DNA of 64,000 nt from Sorex araneus (Eukaryota > Chordata > Mammalia > Eulipotyphla > Soricidae). Shown piece after piece: positions 857-59,796 of the stretch. Under the pieces are notes generated by a model, which did not search any database, was not told the origin of the DNA, and saw only the letters and a program-made list of their open reading frames with translations. The stretch spans positions 115,521,552 through 115,585,551 of the forward strand of contig NC_073313.1 in the NCBI RefSeq assembly GCF_027595985.1, read 5' to 3'. Every line of letters begins with the position of its first letter. The stretch's first letter is position 1. The translations under genes and the position numbers were made by a program.

Positions 857-1108
857 CTGTAGCACTGTAGCACTGTCATCCCATTGTTATCGATTTGCTC
901 GAGAAGGCACCAGTAATGTCTCCATTGTGAGACTTGTTGTTACTGTTTTTGGCATATCGGATATGCCACGGGTAGCTTGCCAGGCTCTGCTGTGTGGGTG
1001 GGATACTCTGGGTAGCTTGCCAGGCTCTCTAAGAGGGACGGAGGAATCTAACCCGGATTGGTCACGTGCAAGGAAAACGCCCTACCTTCTGTGCTATCAC
1101 TACAGTCT
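857..1108 (-). mobile_element. RTE-tailed SINE
   Basis: Read on the minus strand, this copy has a tRNA-like head (B-box region near 1040-1060), a body with two GGCAAGCTACC-like repeats, the CAAAAACAGTAACAACA segment, and the RTE-like tail ending in GACAGTGCTACAGTGCTACA-type repeats. It is complete and moderately diverged. Family details are under 23549-23796. Confidence 0.9.
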
Positions 1109-9877: not shown

Positions 9878-9890
9878 CATAGAACAGTCA

Positions 9891-10128
9891 CTGTCATCCC
9901 ATTGCTCATTGATTTATTCAAGCGGGTACCAGTAATCTCTCATTGTGAGACTTATTGTTACTGTTTTTGGCATAACCAATACACCACGGGTAGCTTGCCA
10001 GGCTCTGCCTTGCGGGCGGGCAAGAGACTCTCGGTAGCTTGCCGGGCTCTCCGAGAGGGGCAGAGGAATCAAACACAGGTCGGCCGCATGAAAGGCCAAC
10101 ACCCTAATGCTGTGCTATTGCTCCAGCC
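9891..10128 (-). mobile_element. RTE-tailed SINE with 13-bp TSD
   Basis: Complete copy in the old L1, flanked by CATAGAACAGTCA at 9878-9890 and 10129-10141. The repeat tail overlaps the left TSD. The head (GGGCTGGAGCAATAGCACAGC on the minus strand) and the RTE-like tail are both recognisable. Confidence 0.93.
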
Positions 10129-10159
10129 CATAGAACAGTCATTGACAAAAATCTGTACG

Positions 10160-10400
10160 GTCACTGTCACTGTCATCCCATCTCTCATCGATTTGCTTGA
10201 GGGGGCACCAGTAACGTCTCCATTGTGAGATTTGTTACTGTTTTTGGCACAATGAATATGCCATGGGTAGCTTGCCAGGCTCTGCTGTGTGGGCGAGATA
10301 CTCTCGGTAGCTTGCTGAGCTCTCTGAGAGGAGAGGAGGAATCGAACTTGGGTTTGCCTTGTGCAAGACAAACGCCCTACCTCTGTGCTATCACTCCAAC
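10160..10400 (-). mobile_element. RTE-tailed SINE
   Basis: Second copy in the same orientation, 32 bp from the first. Likely imperfect TSDs are CAAAAATCTGTACG (about 10146-10159) and CAAAAAATTGTACG (about 10401-10414). The tail reads GGTCACTGTCACTGTCATCC on the plus strand. Confidence 0.92.
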
Positions 10401-10409
10401 CAAAAAATT

Positions 10410-14488: not shown

Positions 14489-14665
14489 ATCCTCTGCCCC
14501 TCTCGGAGAGCCCGGCAAGCTACCGAGAGTATCTCGCCTGCATGGCAGAGCCTGGCAAGCTACCCGTGCCATATTCGATATGCCCAAAACAGTAACAACA
14601 AGTCTCACAATGGAGACCTTATTGGTGAGCAAATGGTGAGCAACGGGATCACAGTGACAGTGACA
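14489..14665 (+). mobile_element. RTE-tailed SINE, 5' truncated (no tRNA head)
   Basis: Starts in the body (CTGCCCCTCTCGGAGAGCCC), has both GGCAAGCTACC repeats and CAGTAACAACAAGTCTCAC, and ends in a near-perfect (ACAGTG)n tail. It lies in the L1 3' UTR. LINE-like 5' truncation fits target-primed reverse transcription. Confidence 0.9.
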
Positions 14666-21182: not shown

Positions 21183-21359
21183 TTTTTTTTTTTTTGCTTT
21201 TTGGGTCACACCCAGCGATGCTCAGGGGTTACTCCTGGCTCTGCACTCAGGAATTACTCCTGGCGGTGCTTGGGGGACCATATGGGATGCCGGGGATCGA
21301 ACCCGGGTCGGCCGCGTGCAAGGCGAACGCCCTACCCGCTGTGCTATCGCTCCGGCCCC
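21183..21359 (-). mobile_element. SOR-type SINE, very young, 17-bp TSD
   Basis: The closest copy to consensus in the window: GGGCCGGAGCGATAGCACAG head, CGTTCGCCTTGCACGCGG and CCGGGTTCGATCCCCGGC on the minus strand, with a long pure T-run (A-tail) at its left end. TSD TGCATGTAGAATATTTT at 21166-21182 and 21360-21376. A further copy of that motif at 21382-21398 shows a pre-existing local duplication. Confidence 0.97.
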
Positions 21360-23548: not shown

Positions 23549-23796
23549 GGGGCTGGAGCGATAGCACATTGGTTGGGCGTTCGCTTTTCACCCGGCCGAC
23601 CCGAGTTCGATTCCTCCGCCCCTCTCAGAGAGCCTGGCAAGCTACCGAGAGTATCGAGCACGCACAGCAGAGCCTGGCAAGCTACCCCGTGCGTATTGGA
23701 TATGCCAAAAACAGTAACAATAAGTCTCTCAATGAGAGACGTTACTGGTGTCCGCTTGAACAAATCGATGAGCAACTGGATGACAGTGACAGTGAC
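23549..23796 (+). mobile_element. RTE-tailed SINE, complete reference copy, 10-bp TSD
   Basis: A 248-bp copy flanked by ATGGTTCACA (23539-23548 and 23797-23806). Parts in order: a tRNA-like head shared with SOR SINEs up to the B box; a body with the repeated GGCAAGCTACC motif and an ATATGCC palindromic stretch; CAAAAACAGTAACAATAAG; a 3' block from GTTACTGGTG to GATGACA that matches the end of the RTE fragment at 40538-41580; and a (CAGTGA)n tail with no poly(A). The tail still reads in frame as CPLEQIDEQ, as does the RTE C-terminus with some changes. Mobilisation by an RTE rather than L1 is inferred from the tail. Confidence 0.95.
23562..23613 (+). promoter_or_regulatory. RNA polymerase III internal promoter (A and B boxes) of the SINE
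   Basis: A-box-like TAGCACATTGG at 23562-23572 and B box GAGTTCGATTC at 23603-23613, 30 bp apart. This is the type 2 arrangement inherited from a tRNA gene. Equivalent boxes occur in the other SINEs that retain a head. Confidence 0.75.
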
Positions 23797-31939: not shown

Positions 31940-32194
31940 CTGTATCACTGTCATCCCGTTGTTCATCAATTTGCTCAAGTGGGCACCAGTAACGTCTCCA
32001 TTCGTCCCAGCCCTGAGATTTTAGCAGCCTCTCCTTACTCATCTTTCCCAATGATTGGAGGCTCTTTCAGGGTCAAGGGAATGAGACCTCTTATTTCTCT
32101 ATTTGGCATATCGAATACACCACAGGGAGCTTGCCAGGCTCTTCCGTGTGGGTGGGATACTCTCAGTAGCTTGCCGGGCTCTCCAAGAGGGACG
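31940..32194 (-). mobile_element. RTE-tailed SINE-like element, long headless form, 14-bp TSD
   Basis: Shares the body and RTE-type tail with the SINE at 23549, but has an extra segment of about 85 bp (about 32005-32090) between GTCTCA and TGGAGAC on the minus strand, and no tRNA head. The tail is (TGATAC)n-like. TSDs AAGAATATGTATCA (31926-31939) and AAGAATGTGTATCA (32195-32208) differ at one base. A second such copy is at 59509. Confidence 0.85.
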
Positions 32195-35111: not shown

Positions 35112-35358
35112 AGCACTGCCATCCCACTGTTCATAGATTTGCTCAAGCAGGCACCAGTCTCCATTGTGAGACTTGTTGTTACTGTTTTTGGCATATCGAG
35201 TATGCCATGGGTAGCTTGCCAGACTCTGCCATCCAGGTGGAATACTCTTGGTAGCTTGCCGGGCTCTCCGAGAGGGACAGAGGAATCGAAGCACAAGGTA
35301 AACGCCCTACCCGAGTGCAAGATAAATGCCGTACCCGCTGTGCTATCGCTCCAGTCCA
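35112..35358 (-). mobile_element. RTE-tailed SINE
   Basis: Tail TGTAGCACTGCCATCCCACTG on plus at the left edge, AGTCTCCATTGTGAGACTTG, both GGTAGCTTGCC repeats, and a duplicated head segment (GTAAACGCCCTACCC / GATAAATGCCGTACCC at 35298-35336). A small deletion removes part of the tail (CACCAGTCTCCATT lacks AACG). Confidence 0.92.
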
Positions 35359-35857: not shown

Positions 35858-36093
35858 GGGAGCGATAGCATAGTGAGTGGGTAGGGCATTTGCCTGTATG
35901 AGGCTGACCCCGGTTCCATTCCTCCGTCCCTTCGGAGAGTTCGGCAAGCTACCAAGAGTATCCCACCTGCACGGCAGAGCCTGGCAAGCTACCTGTGGCA
36001 TATTCAATATGTCAAAAACAGTAACAAGAAGTCTCACAATGGAGATGCTACTGGTGCCCGCTGGAGCAAATCGCTGAACAACGGGACGACAGT
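35858..36093 (+). mobile_element. RTE-tailed SINE, slightly 5' truncated
   Basis: Starts at GGGAGCGATAGCATAGTG. B box CCGGTTCCATTCC is altered by one base. The full body and tail to GGGACGACAGTG are present. It lies in the old L1. Confidence 0.92.
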
Positions 36094-36507
36094 GCTTTAG
36101 TGTTTTATCAGAGAACTGTGTGTGACTATCTTATCCTCTTCATTTAAGTGTCTTTTAATTTTAACCCAAGTTTATTTTGCCATGTAAAAACTTTTAGCTT
36201 CCTATAATTGCACTCACTTGTTTTGGGTATCTTTGCCAGTGTATATGTGTCATTGAGGAGACCTTTGACATCTAAATTCTGATGAGTTCTGCCTATGTTA
36301 CCCTCAATGAATTTCATGGTTTCTGGTAGAATTTATAGGTCTCTGAGCCACCTGGAATTAAATTTTATACAAAAGTGAGAAACCTATTTTTTTAGTAATT
36401 TTTAGTCAATTTTTTCCCAGCATCATTTGTTGAAGAAGCTTTTCTTGATCCACTTCATAAGCCCAACTCCTATGTCAGGGAACTGCCCACCTATCTGACA
36501 GTTATAT

Positions 36508-37185: not shown

Positions 37186-37434
37186 CGCTGGAGCAATAGC
37201 ACAGCGGTAGGGTATTTGCCTTGCACGCGGCTGACCCGGGTTCGATTCCTTCGCTCCTCTCAGACAGCCCGGCAAGCTACTGAGAGTATCTCACCAGCAC
37301 AGCAGAGCCTGGAAAGCTATCCATGGCATATTCAATATGCCAAAAACAGTAACAGAAAGCCTCACAATGGAGACGTTACTGGTGCCCGCTCGAACAAATC
37401 TATGAGCAATGGGATGACAGTGGCAGTGACAATG
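37186..37434 (+). mobile_element. RTE-tailed SINE, first of a direct pair
   Basis: Complete. Its 3' block ATGGAGACGTTACTGGTGCC to GATGACA aligns with the RTE fragment end at 44 of 53 positions by eye. Flanked by ACATACAG at 37178-37185 and 37435-37442. Confidence 0.95.
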
Positions 37435-37442
37435 ACATACAG

Positions 37443-37690
37443 GGCTGGAGCAATAGCACAGCAGGAGGGCGTTTGCCTTGCACGTGGCCGACCCAGGTTC
37501 GATTCTTTCACCCCTCTCAGAGAGCTCTTCAGGTTACCGAGAGTATTCTGCCCGCACAGCAAAGCCTGGCAAGCTACCTATGGCATATTCGATATGCCAA
37601 AAACAGTAAAAACAAGTCTCACAATGGAGGCATTACTGGTGCCCGCTCGAGCAAATCGATGAACAATGGGACAACAGTGCTACAATGCAA
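37443..37690 (+). mobile_element. RTE-tailed SINE, second of a direct pair
   Basis: Complete. Starts immediately after the right TSD of the first copy. The tail ends GGGACAACAGTGCTACAATG. The two copies differ at scattered sites, so they are separate insertions, not a recent tandem duplication. Confidence 0.95.
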
Positions 37691-40037: not shown

Positions 40038-40537
40038 AAGCAAAATGTTACCTTGGAAGCTTGCAGAGTTATACAATGTCATCATTGCTAAAAATGTTTT
40101 TAAAATTTCATAACTTGTTTATGAGCCACATATGCTTTTCCAATACCCAGCAGAGTTATGTCTGTGTTTATTCTCCTCTTTTCATATTGGATTACCTGTG
40201 AAGTTTTAAAAATATGACTTGGACTACCTATGAGGCTTTAAAAATATGGTTTAGGCTTATGTTAATTAATTGTGTAGTGTGGCTTTGGAATGAATAGCCA
40301 ATATTGTGAACCATTGGGCTAAATATTTTACCAGGTTCTTAGGCTCTCATTAGTTTTTCTACCACCTGAAAGTGATGTAAAACCAAAAATCATAGTTAAA
40401 AACTATTTAAAGATAACAATAACATAGCTTGTCAGATTTTGATTTCACTGTGCTCTTTTGTTCAAAACCAATAGCTAATTTAGCACTGTCTTTGTAAACA
40501 TTTTGGCCATAAAGCCATCAATCTATCCTCACTAAAG
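40038..40537. other. No recognisable element; short imperfect duplication
   Basis: GTTTTAAAAATATGACTT (40203) and CTTTAAAAATATGGTTT (40235) form a loose local repeat. The block borders the RTE fragment. Confidence 0.5.
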
Positions 40538-41580
40538 TACTTGTCACACTTGTCACTTGTCATCCCGTTGATCTTCTATTTACTCGAGCAGGCACCAGTA
40601 ACATCTCCATTTGTCCCTGTTGTGTGCTAGTGTAGCCCAATGGGATCCGCTCGCTCCAGGAACAGGAAGAGCCTCAAACCGTTCATTCAGGGTTTTGACG
40701 AAGAAGTCTGACCATCTTGTAGGTGGGCGGCCACACGGTCTTTTGACATCATGTGGAATCCAGTTGTTAACAGCTCTAGTCCAGCGGTTGTCTCTAAATA
40801 GCATTACGTGTCCAGCCCATCTGATTTTTGACACCTTGGCAAATGAGATAGCGTCCCCTGATTCTTGATCGTCGATGGAGGTCAGGACTCTGAATCCTTT
40901 CTCGCACTTGAGTGAAACGTGATACTCCAAGCATAGTTCGTTCAGTTCCTCTTAGGGATACCTGAATAGAGTTCTCATCCTGTTTTCTTAGGTCTCAGGT
41001 CTCTGAGGCGTATGTTAGTGCAGGAAGAATGGTGGAGTCGAAAAGATGTGCCCGGAGCTGGAGGTTCTTTGTCCTCTTAACCACTTCTTCGACCCTCTTG
41101 AAGGCGTTCCACTCTGCTCTCTTCCTCCTGTGCAGTTCTGGCACCAAGTCGTTCCTCATGTTGAGTTCTCGACCCAAGTACACATAGCTGCTGCATTTGG
41201 AGATGTTCCTTCCGTTGAAAGCAAATGGAACTTCAGAGTCTAGTTTGTTTTTCATGAACATTGTCTTGGTGAGATTCAGCTGCAGTCGGACCTTTCCACA
41301 ATTGCAGTCGAAGTCGGCCAGCATTTGTGCCACTTGGCTAATGTTTGGTGTTATGAGAACGATGTCTTCATCGAAGTGGAGGTGGTGTAGTTGCCAACCA
41401 TCTACCTTCACTCTCATTCCTTCTCATTCCAGTCATCACATGATGTTCTCGAAGGTGGCACTCACGAGTTTTGGTGAAATAGTATCACCCTGCCGAACCT
41501 CTCTCTTTATGTCAATGATTACTTCCTTGTAGAATGGTGAGATTCTGGTGGTGAATCCATAATACAGCTCACAGAACTGT
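40538..41580 (-). mobile_element. RTE-clade LINE fragment, nematode-like (RT domain to 3' end)
   Basis: Minus-strand ORFs (41417-40995, 140 codons; 40930-40580, 116 codons) join with the frame upstream of 41417 to give part of an RTE reverse transcriptase and its C-terminus. Landmarks: YKEVIIDIKREVRQGDTISP (about 41540-41470), LHHLHFDEDIVLITPN (about 41395), YVYLGRELNMRNDL (about 41185), LPALTYASET (about 41010), KIRWAGHVMLF (about 40815) and RPPTRWSDFF (about 40715). The catalytic FADD box reads FDED, and there are at least two frameshifts or stops, so it is dead. It is 5' truncated inside RT and ends in TGACAAGTGACAAGTGTGAC-like repeats without poly(A). ACTAAAG at 40531-40537 and 41581-41587 may be a short TSD. 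The wording is much closer to nematode RTEs than to ruminant BovB, as far as I recall both families. It matches RTE1_Sar as I recall it. Confidence 0.92.
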
Positions 41581-41587
41581 ACTAAAG

Positions 41588-42499
41588 GACATACAAGAAT
41601 AAAGCATATTCATAAGAAAGACCATCTTATTTTGAATTTTATCTGACTAGGTTTAGACTTATATCGTTTGTTTGAAGATCTTTTTTATTCTGTGCTATTT
41701 TGAATAGTGAGTTTTCAATTCATGTATTATGACCATATAAGAGAAGTGAAGGAGTTTTGTGTTTGTTTTTCATATAAATGAAGAGGAATAGCTAAAATTT
41801 ATATTTTTATTACATAATTTTAGCTTATGTGGACTTGAATTTTATTTGTTTTACAGTACATATTTTGTTAGCAATTTCTTCATAGCAACAACCTTTATTA
41901 AGTATCATTCATACAAGACAATGCAGTATTTAACTTTTCTGATTGATTTTACAGAATAATAAACATGTCAGAGATGGTGTTAACTCCTCCTCAGATTAAT
42001 TATATTTGACTTTTATTACATGAATAAACATATTTATATGATCAATATCTTCCATATAATTTGATTTAAGAGCAGAATTCACTTAGTGATGTTAAAACAA
42101 TAATAAAGTGCAATAATTTACAGATTTAAATGGATAATAAAATGTAGTTATAAAATATCAAAGAAAAAAATAAAATTATGATTTTTATCTTTTAAATACC
42201 AAAGAGAAACTTGAATAACAAATTCACATGACCTACTTATTTGTTGATAGTGAACCAAAGAGTTTAAAGGTACAAGTGAAACAGGAGCATTTATTCTCTT
42301 GATGATAATGTCCGCTTGTTCTCTACAAGCAGAAATCCAGAATGCTGAAAGGGTGTTAATGAATTTCATTATATCTGTTAAAAACTGCCTCTGGAAAACT
42401 GGTACAATCCAGATTGATAAAATAGGGTAAGATCCAAAAGAAAATTCTAAAGTGCAGACATTTTGTGTCTCACCAAAACTTGGCTTTTAAAAACTCTTT
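41588..42499. other. No recognisable element
   Basis: Strongly AT-rich (TATATTT-type runs). Chance ORFs only. Confidence 0.5.
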
Positions 42500-55879: not shown

Positions 55880-56765
55880 TTTAAATTTTATTGGAACGTT
55901 TAATTTCAAGTTTTATTTTTGTTTGGGTAAAATGATTACATTAGTGCCAAACTACACGGTATTGATATGCACAGTTTCTGCAACCCACCACCACCATCAA
56001 AGTGTCCGTGACCCTCTGACCCAGTAGAACTGTTCCTATCTCAATTAGTTTGGTATTCATTCTGATCCAGTCCTTGCCCACTGCAGGCTTTGGTAATTAG
56101 TATTGTAATTCAAGGTCAATATTTTGTTCACTGTCACTGTCACTGTCATCCCATTGCTTGTCGATTTGCTCTAGTGGGCTCCAGTAACATCTCCATTGTA
56201 TGACTTGTTGTTACTGTTTTTGGCATATCGAGTATGCCACGGGGAGCTTGCCAGGCTGTGCCAGGCGGGCTAGATACTCTTGGTAGCTTGCCAGGCTCTC
56301 TGAGAGGGGTGGAGGAATTGAACTCCTGTGTGCGCGTGAAAGGCAAACACCCTGCCTACTGTGCTATCGCTCCAGCCCGAATATTTTGTTATTATTTTAT
56401 ATTGTATCTCCCCTCACTTTGTTTCATTATATTCCACAGATGAGTCATCTTTGATTTAGTTTGTTAAGCATGATACCTTACAGTTTCATTCATATTGTAG
56501 TGAACTATATCATTTTATCTTTTCTTCAAGCTGCACAGTATTCTCTTGTGCATATATGCCATGACTTCATTTTCCATTTATCAACAACTGGACATTCAGG
56601 TTGTCTCTATATCCTGGAACAATGGCAATATTGTATTACAAAAGCATTGTAATGAACATAGATCTAGATATACATTTTTTAATTGAATGTCTCTGTCTTT
56701 CAGTAGATGTCAAGAAGTAGAACTTCTGGATCATATAGAATATGGGAGAATATGAATTTTCTGAC
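55880..56765 (-). mobile_element. Old L1 3' end (ORF2 C-terminus and 3' UTR), interrupted by a SINE
   Basis: Tail side at 55885-55925. The 3' UTR runs to about 56440, then ORF2 end text reversed (CTGCACAGTATTCTCTTGTG at about 56530, CAACAACTGGACATTCAGG at about 56581). An RTE-tailed SINE sits at 56129-56379. Confidence 0.85.
56129..56379 (-). mobile_element. RTE-tailed SINE, 11-bp TSD
   Basis: TSD AATATTTTGTT at 56118-56128 and 56380-56390. The plus-strand left edge is CACTGTCACTGTCACTGTCA, the reversed repeat tail of at least three units. Complete head at the right (CTATCGCTCCAGCCC). Confidence 0.96.
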
Positions 56766-59508: not shown

Positions 59509-59796
59509 CACTGTATAACTGTCCACTGTCATCCTGTTTTTCAATTTGCTTGAGGGGGAGCCAGTAATGTCTCCACTCATCCTAGCCCTGAGATTTTAGC
59601 AGCATCTCTTTACTCGTCCTTCCCATTGTTGCCGCATTGAAGGCTCTTTCAGGATCAGGGGATGAGACCCATCATTGTTACTGTTTTTGACATATCAAAT
59701 ACACCACAGGGAGTTTGCCATGCTCTGCTGTGAGGGCAGGATACTCTTGGTAGCTTGCCAGGTTCTCCAGGAGGGAAAACTAGACATTAAGAAGTC
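59509..59796 (-). mobile_element. RTE-tailed SINE-like element, long headless form
   Basis: Second copy of the form at 31940-32194: same body, CAAAAACAGTAACAATGATG on the minus strand, then the extra segment of about 85 bp ending in CAGGGCTAGGATGAG, then the RTE-type tail. No tRNA head. TSD-like TGATCTTTCTAT / TGATCTTTATAT at 59497-59508 and 59797-59808 place about 21 unassigned bases at its 5' end. Confidence 0.82.

Follow-up and report, generated by a model that had tools for sequence, protein, structure and literature searches.

The genome of the shrew Sorex araneus carries two kinds of SINE with a common tRNA-like head, namely SINE-A, which ends in poly(A), and SINE-B, which ends in a block resembling the 3′ end of a nematode-like RTE. 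SINE-B is very probably an RTE-dependent composite SINE, and the SINEs of this genome would then be mobilized along two routes, i.e. by L1 for SINE-A and by the nematode-like RTE for SINE-B. It also seems probable, at a lower level of confidence, that in this way a transposon of a nematode parasite gave rise to a second SINE system in one mammalian lineage, independently of ruminants. The system would comprise the autonomous RTE, a headless mini-RTE and a tRNA-headed composite present in some hundreds of thousands of copies, with the promoter borrowed from the resident L1-dependent SINE and the 3′ signal located inside the RTE coding sequence.

The strongylid RTE1_Sar-type RTE is abundant in the genome and its deletion derivatives, the mini-RTEs, are present. 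In the proposed mechanism, the RNA or a copy of a mini-RTE would have been joined to a SINE-A head, by template switch or adjacent insertion; polymerase III would transcribe the resulting SINE-B from the head; and the RTE protein would recognize the shared 3′ block, cut the DNA approximately ten bases past a T-run and prime reverse transcription there.

Architecture and abundance of the elements

SINE-A consists of a 66-nt tRNA-like head, a body of its own and a poly(A) tail, as exemplified by the copy at 21188..21358 (minus strand) of the window, i.e. the whole stretch of 64,000 nucleotides that was analysed. In SINE-B, a 66-nt tRNA head is followed by a body of 111 nt and by the RTE-like 3′ block, and the heads of the two consensus sequences are identical at 66/66 positions. 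The head consensus contains an A-box-like TAGCACAGCGG and a B-box GGTTCGATTCC, which form a putative internal promoter. The mini-RTE is headless, a longer RTE 5′ piece being joined straight to the RTE 3′ block, and its RTE sequence extends past what SINE-B retains.

In the window, the RTE itself is represented by a 5′-truncated fragment of the younger subfamily (40541..41580, minus strand; ~1,040 nt), which has a broken ORF and GTGACA-like terminal repeats. The 3′ block common to RTE and SINE-B, formed by the final coding bases and the tail, lies at 40541..40612 (minus strand). An initial annotation had named 12 SINE or SINE-like copies ending in this block. The block is indeed found at all 12 places: the 72-nt RTE tail matches 11 of them (E from 1e-12 to 6e-5), and the one at 14490 was found with a SINE query, with a control value of 0.02 matches per first-order Markov shuffle of the window (50 shuffles, at most 1).

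Nine of these copies are tRNA-headed SINE-B. On the minus strand they lie at 869..1105 (90.3% to the consensus), 9889..10129 (86.8%), 10168..10401 (86.6%), 35112..35357 (82.9%) and 56141..56378 (86.6%; with an 11-bp duplication, AACAAAATATT), and on the plus strand at 23550..23788 (88.8%; with a 10-bp duplication, ATGGTTCACA), 35859..36096 (86.3%), 37187..37422 (89.9%; GTGACA-type tail) and 37442..37681 (89.6%; GTGCTA-type tail), the last of which adjoins the preceding one. The others do not fit the description as SINEs in the same way: the copy at 14490..14656 (plus strand; 86.9% to the SINE-B consensus) lacks the head and begins at body position 64, while those at 31940..32192 (minus strand; 93.8% to the mini-RTE consensus, of which it is itself a member) and 59524..59776 (minus strand; more diverged, 83.3%) are headless mini-RTEs, in which the RTE 5′ region is fused to the RTE 3′ end.

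The genome that was searched comprises 2.41 Gb in 65 contigs. Sampling of 20 segments of 10 kb, chosen at round coordinates, yielded 28 SINE-B (counted across the body-tail junction) and 85 SINE-A (counted across the middle), which scale, very roughly, to ~340,000 and ~1,000,000 copies per genome, respectively; the same 200 kb contain 2 RTE 3′ ends. Exact matches to a 31-mer from one SINE-B subfamily number 6,744 genome-wide (0 for the reversed-pattern control), and those to a 32-mer of the younger RTE tail number 534 (control 0). The possibility that SINE-B is mere debris of 5′-truncated RTE copies was considered and rejected, the head being the start point in 27 of 40 sampled copies.

Origin of the 3′ block and of the SINE-B body

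The alignment of the RTE 3′ end with the SINE at 37186, initially put at 44 of 53 positions, is reproduced at 45/54, and both elements end, as had been reported, in GTGACA-like repeats instead of poly(A). Indeed, tails made of GTGACA/GTGCTA/GTGATA-type repeats without poly(A) are found in SINE-B, mini-RTE and RTE. The SINE-B consensus agrees closely with the consensus of 29 RTE 3′ ends; when the older and the younger RTE subfamilies are taken separately, each differs from SINE-B by 4 mismatches in 54 positions (50/54, 93%), above the 85% that the initial annotation had regarded as supportive, and 53/58 columns are equal once the start of the tail is included. With respect to the older subfamily, 3 of the 4 mismatches fall on CG/TG/CA positions.

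The RTE ORF ends in the shared block, its stop codon falling within the tail repeat, and 8/8 loci finish in ..DK* in the chosen frame; SINE-B, translated by eye in that frame, gives WRRYWCPLEQIDEQWDD. A protein search with a natural RTE C-terminal piece returned 677 matches, and among the 120 of them that were listed the best, from Nippostrongylus, is 72% identical. The organisms named among the same 120 are Nippostrongylus, Heligmosomoides, Necator, Haemonchus, Angiostrongylus, Ancylostoma and Parelaphostrongylus, a few proteins being without a name; these are genera of strongylid nematodes. Many of the 120 proteins are partial; in 45 of the 120, the C-terminal part contains a match to a loose WxYW or WxxYW pattern, as in Nippostrongylus P0001 (WRRYWRPLEQIDDQRDDR). 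The likely donor of the SINE-B 3′ block is the RTE, because the block encodes the RTE C-terminus that is common to strongylid nematode proteins. The claim that the RTE gave rise to the SINE is thus supported, the block being coding in the RTE and the nematode proteins ending alike.

The initial expectation that identity would be confined to the 3′ end did not hold, since the SINE body also matches the RTE 5′ region: the SINE-B body equals the RTE 5′ consensus at 105/111 positions. The body had been a candidate for SINE-specific sequence, which was dropped when long RTE copies were found to match it near their 5′ end. In a search dedicated to this block, 40/40 scored matches (including that of the query to itself) extend over the block and into the RTE sequence that follows it. 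The block is present in 19/19 aligned RTE 5′ ends (16 taken in rank order plus L050-L052), with 79.8-93.8% per copy and in no case with the head joined; in two loci, L052 and L087, a SINE-A head is found further upstream of the RTE 5′ block, not joined to it. Between the 5′ block and the endonuclease start MTVCTFNARTLAS on its downstream side there are 121 nt; the block may be coding or untranslated, because the consensus frame leading into MTVCTFNARTLAS is open through it.

Read from the aligned consensus sequences, SINE-B is a tRNA head followed by an RTE 5′ piece and an RTE 3′ piece, like ruminant Bov-tA, and the RTE-derived share of the element amounts to ~70%. Bov-tA also includes a Bov-A part, i.e. 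one from the BovB 5′ end.

Sequence identity alone does not give the direction of transfer, which leaves room for a flow in the opposite sense, with the RTE having acquired both its 3′ end and its 5′ piece from the SINE. Such a history is extremely improbable, as the 3′ block encodes a C-terminus common to strongylid nematode proteins, the 5′ block runs on into RTE-only sequence on its downstream side in 19/19 and on its upstream side in 15/19 of the RTE 5′ ends, with the head joined in 0/19, and mini-RTEs hold RTE sequence beyond the share found in SINE-B.

With transfer from RTE to SINE as the preferred direction, the identity of the RTE itself rests on its occurrence in a shrew genome and on its closest proteins being strongylid: it is very likely RTE1_Sar. 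Horizontal transfer of RTE1_Sar has been published, with S. araneus as the sole mammalian host in the survey, according to the excerpts of PMC6542046. The RTE may, therefore, have arrived horizontally, as indicated by PMC6542046 together with the nematode protein matches; the word SINE is absent from the main text of PMC6542046.

Close to the question of how head and RTE came together, L087 (C5:86424181-86424696) offers an RTE that starts near the block start, directly after the poly(A) stretch of a SINE-A, i.e. the type of neighbour able to yield a head-plus-RTE fusion.

Insertion sites and related SINE/LINE pairs

The insertion-site set leaves aside L001 and L049, which duplicate window or L029 sequence, along with copies too near the locus end and SINE copies beginning after position 8. 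In SINE-A, duplications were found in 44/73 copies (0, 0 and 3 with swapped flanks), with a median of 16 nt and an A fraction of 0.77, 0.82, 0.77 and 0.68 at the first four positions; the difference between these 73 copies and the 77 behind the pooled comparison given below reflects different E-value cut-offs. SINE-A insertion sites have the L1 pattern, i.e. poly(A) followed by duplications that often start with AAA. In SINE-B, duplications were found in 11/28 copies of a first sample (mean of 0.47 with swapped flanks, 15 swaps) and in 15/27 copies of a second (0-1 in ten swapped trials), the latter sample being drawn from the first 40 exact 31-mer matches, all from one contig. These samples supersede an earlier scan with other settings, which had given duplications in 8/25 SINE-B and 12/29 SINE-A (swapped 0 and 0).

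When the two SINE-B samples are pooled, the median duplication is 12 nt (n=26) versus 16 nt in SINE-A (n=44; p 6e-8). AAA stands at the start of the duplication in 0/26 SINE-B versus 21/44 SINE-A (p 6e-6), an excess in SINE-A that could partly reflect the difficulty of telling poly(A) from duplication. The T-run is free of this difficulty: TTT within -14..-8, i.e. approximately 10 nt upstream, is found in 18/26 SINE-B versus 3/44 SINE-A (p 6e-8). A T just before the duplication combined with A as its first base occurs in 12/26 SINE-B versus 12/44 SINE-A, which is not significant (p 0.13). SINE-A and SINE-B copies, therefore, sit at sites with different endonuclease signatures, and the features of L1-dependent elements, i.e. 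a poly(A) tail and AAAA-starting duplications, are found in SINE-A and not in SINE-B. According to the excerpts of PMC13295347, Bov-B and other RTE elements, as well as their SINEs, are marked by a T-run approximately ten bases upstream of the duplication and by TA at the cut. The claim of a SINE mobilization route beside L1 is, in this respect, supported by the insertion sites, and we infer from the sequences that SINE-B uses the RTE as its helper.

RTE copies were scanned likewise. Among 7 copies, one (L005) has an exact 10-bp duplication and the window copy an imperfect one of 10 bp (9/10; 41581-41590 and 40531-40540), which scored under the SINE cut-off, while 5/7 gave nothing convincing; random positions beat the cut-off in 1/210.

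It could be argued that SINE-B is moved by L1, as is SINE-A, and that its RTE tail is a relic without a role, given that the promoter head is common to the L1-type SINE-A and that L1, as is generally known, is able to move many RNAs. We consider this highly improbable in the light of the lack of poly(A), of the duplications, which are shorter and never start with AAA, and of the upstream T-runs, and also of the 3′ block and tail repeats being retained across the SINE-B copies compared. Dependence of SINE-B on RTE is, thus, the reading retained here, with several details counted against it: the RTE copies yielded hardly any duplications from which their own signature could be read, TA at the cut is not clearly enriched over SINE-A, and the tail units are slightly unlike, being AAGTGATAC or AAGTGAC in RTE and AGTGCTAC or AGTGAC in SINE-B. 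On the same side stands the structure of the shared 3′ block: the minimum free energies from RNA folding were not better than those of 200 shuffles (z 0.74, 0.09 and -0.09), so that no stem-loop is claimed.

The tail unit depends on the subfamily in SINE-B, mini-RTE and RTE (AGTGCTAC, AGTGAC, AGTGATAC, AAGTGATAC, AAGTGAC), and the first base of some duplications could belong to the tail repeat unit. Taken together, the two observations hint at microhomology or slippage at priming.

SINE-A is presumably the Sor SINE, which has an A-rich tail; SINE-B differs from Sor in having no A-rich tail. Sor is listed as a T- SINE of the shrew genome in the excerpts of PMC11240701. Pairs of a SINE with a partner RTE are a familiar phenomenon, as the excerpts of PMC3747384 make clear, and the mammal rows available from the 2013 table (PMC3747384 Table 1) hold no shrew pair. 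In the open-licence literature, as far as its accessible portions go, no report of an RTE-partnered SINE in a shrew was found, and an entry in Repbase, Dfam or SINEBase is possible; the available portions of PMC4476161, PMC12026660, PMC3183009 and PMC11240701 do not treat such a pair.

The closest known system is that of Bov-tA and Bov-A2 with BovB in ruminants, in which, according to the excerpts of PMC3747384 (Table 1) and PMC8620236, a tRNA-headed SINE (Bov-tA) coexists with a derivative that has the RTE 5′ end as its head (Bov-A2). The same excerpts (PMC3747384; PMC8620236) describe another feature in common with the shrew elements, i.e. a tail that derives from a horizontally acquired RTE, the genome having L1 as well. 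Unlike Bov-tA, the shrew SINE-B has an RTE of strongylid-nematode type, another head and a separate origin; unlike both Bov-tA and Bov-A2 with BovB, its 3′ block is the coding end of the ORF. Its tail appears to be explained by the strongylid-type RTE.

Other likenesses are partial. RTESINE1 and RTE1-N1_LA, of opossum and elephant, join an RTE 5′ end to an RTE tail as the mini-RTE does (PMC3747384 Table 1, in the rows available), but, unlike SINE-B, they have no tRNA head and belong to other RTE lineages. Ped-2, paired with BovB in the springhare, resembles SINE-B in adding an RTE tail to the head of an existing tRNA SINE (ID), as given in the same rows (PMC3747384 Table 1), and differs in both the head and the RTE.

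SINE-B with its nematode-type RTE is an unusually complete example of an RTE-partnered SINE, because one genome contains the donor lineage, the intermediate, the product and also an L1-type SINE that shares the head. The intermediates are still readable, so that the steps by which such SINEs are born can be tested one at a time. Furthermore, SINE-A and SINE-B share the head but not the tail, the body or the insertion signature, and hence provide an internal control for the role of the 3′ end and of the helper. If the proposed origin is correct, the shrew elements repeat, with different parts, the history of BovB in ruminants, in which a foreign RTE arrives and host SINEs switch helper; helper switching after horizontal transfer would, then, look recurrent rather than accidental, and a substantial part of the repeats in a mammalian genome may owe its shape to the transposon of a parasite.

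Subfamilies and age

The mark GATGA[A/G]CAA is common to SINE-B and the older RTE. Most older RTE copies have GATGAGCAA or GATGAACAA, in addition to decayed forms, and the younger RTE has GAAGATCAA at the same place. Among 48 tail-bearing copies, mini-RTEs and three RTE ends included, 36 have TGAGCAA or TGAACAA, 2 have AGATCAA and 10 have neither, the AGATCAA carriers being the window RTE and L014. The RTE copy whose 3′ end the initial annotation had aligned with the SINE (40541-41580) belongs to the younger subfamily, SINE-B bearing instead the mark of the older one; the window RTE is, therefore, a later relative of the donor and not the donor itself. L073, with mixed marks, was omitted from the split between older and younger RTE; of the 40 matches in one similarity search, 20 sequences were taken, and another match is L025 itself.

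With CpG-type positions removed, the median distance to the own consensus is 0.118 for SINE-A (n 77, range 0.011-0.388), 0.083 for mini-RTE (n 7) and 0.062 for SINE-B (n 33); the values for older RTE, 0.048 (n 20), and younger RTE, 0.029 (n 28), come mainly from best-hit samples and lean young. RTE copies that were met without a similarity search (L014, L025 and the window copy) have distances of 0.025-0.108. SINE-B and older RTE likely overlap in age, an approximate statement in that the RTE samples are mostly best hits. The overlap of age peaks that had been predicted is thus roughly seen, with the qualification that most of the dated RTE copies belong to such samples. SINE-A is broad in age and older on average, so that its head was available to SINE-B.

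SINE-B is more diverged on average than the younger RTE copies, and older RTE-like ends with (GAT)n tails exist. Both facts would suit a different source, i.e. an older, vertically inherited mammalian RTE as the origin of the SINE-B tail, the nematode-like RTE being only similar to it. This source is very improbable, since SINE-B matches the nematode-like RTE lineage at both ends and has, in addition, the marks of its older subfamily, and since RTE1_Sar was found in no other mammal searched by PMC6542046. The older subfamily of the nematode-like RTE is, hence, the source favoured here.

The (GAT)n-tailed RTE-like 3′ ends, with TGAGACC-type sequence, are found at L010 (~5308), L026 (~9157) and L027 (~751), and some of them sit on mini-RTEs with further shared 5′ sequence, which suggests that an RTE subfamily whose tail unit was different existed earlier. 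In L010 (5309) and L027 (752), the duplications of SINE-A read as mini-RTE sequence, i.e. SINE-A was apparently inserted into old mini-RTEs and was, therefore, still active after them. In the window, copies of two SINE-B subfamilies, one with a GTGACA and the other with a GTGCTA tail, are arranged head to tail at 37187-37681, and the second seems to have inserted where the first ends.
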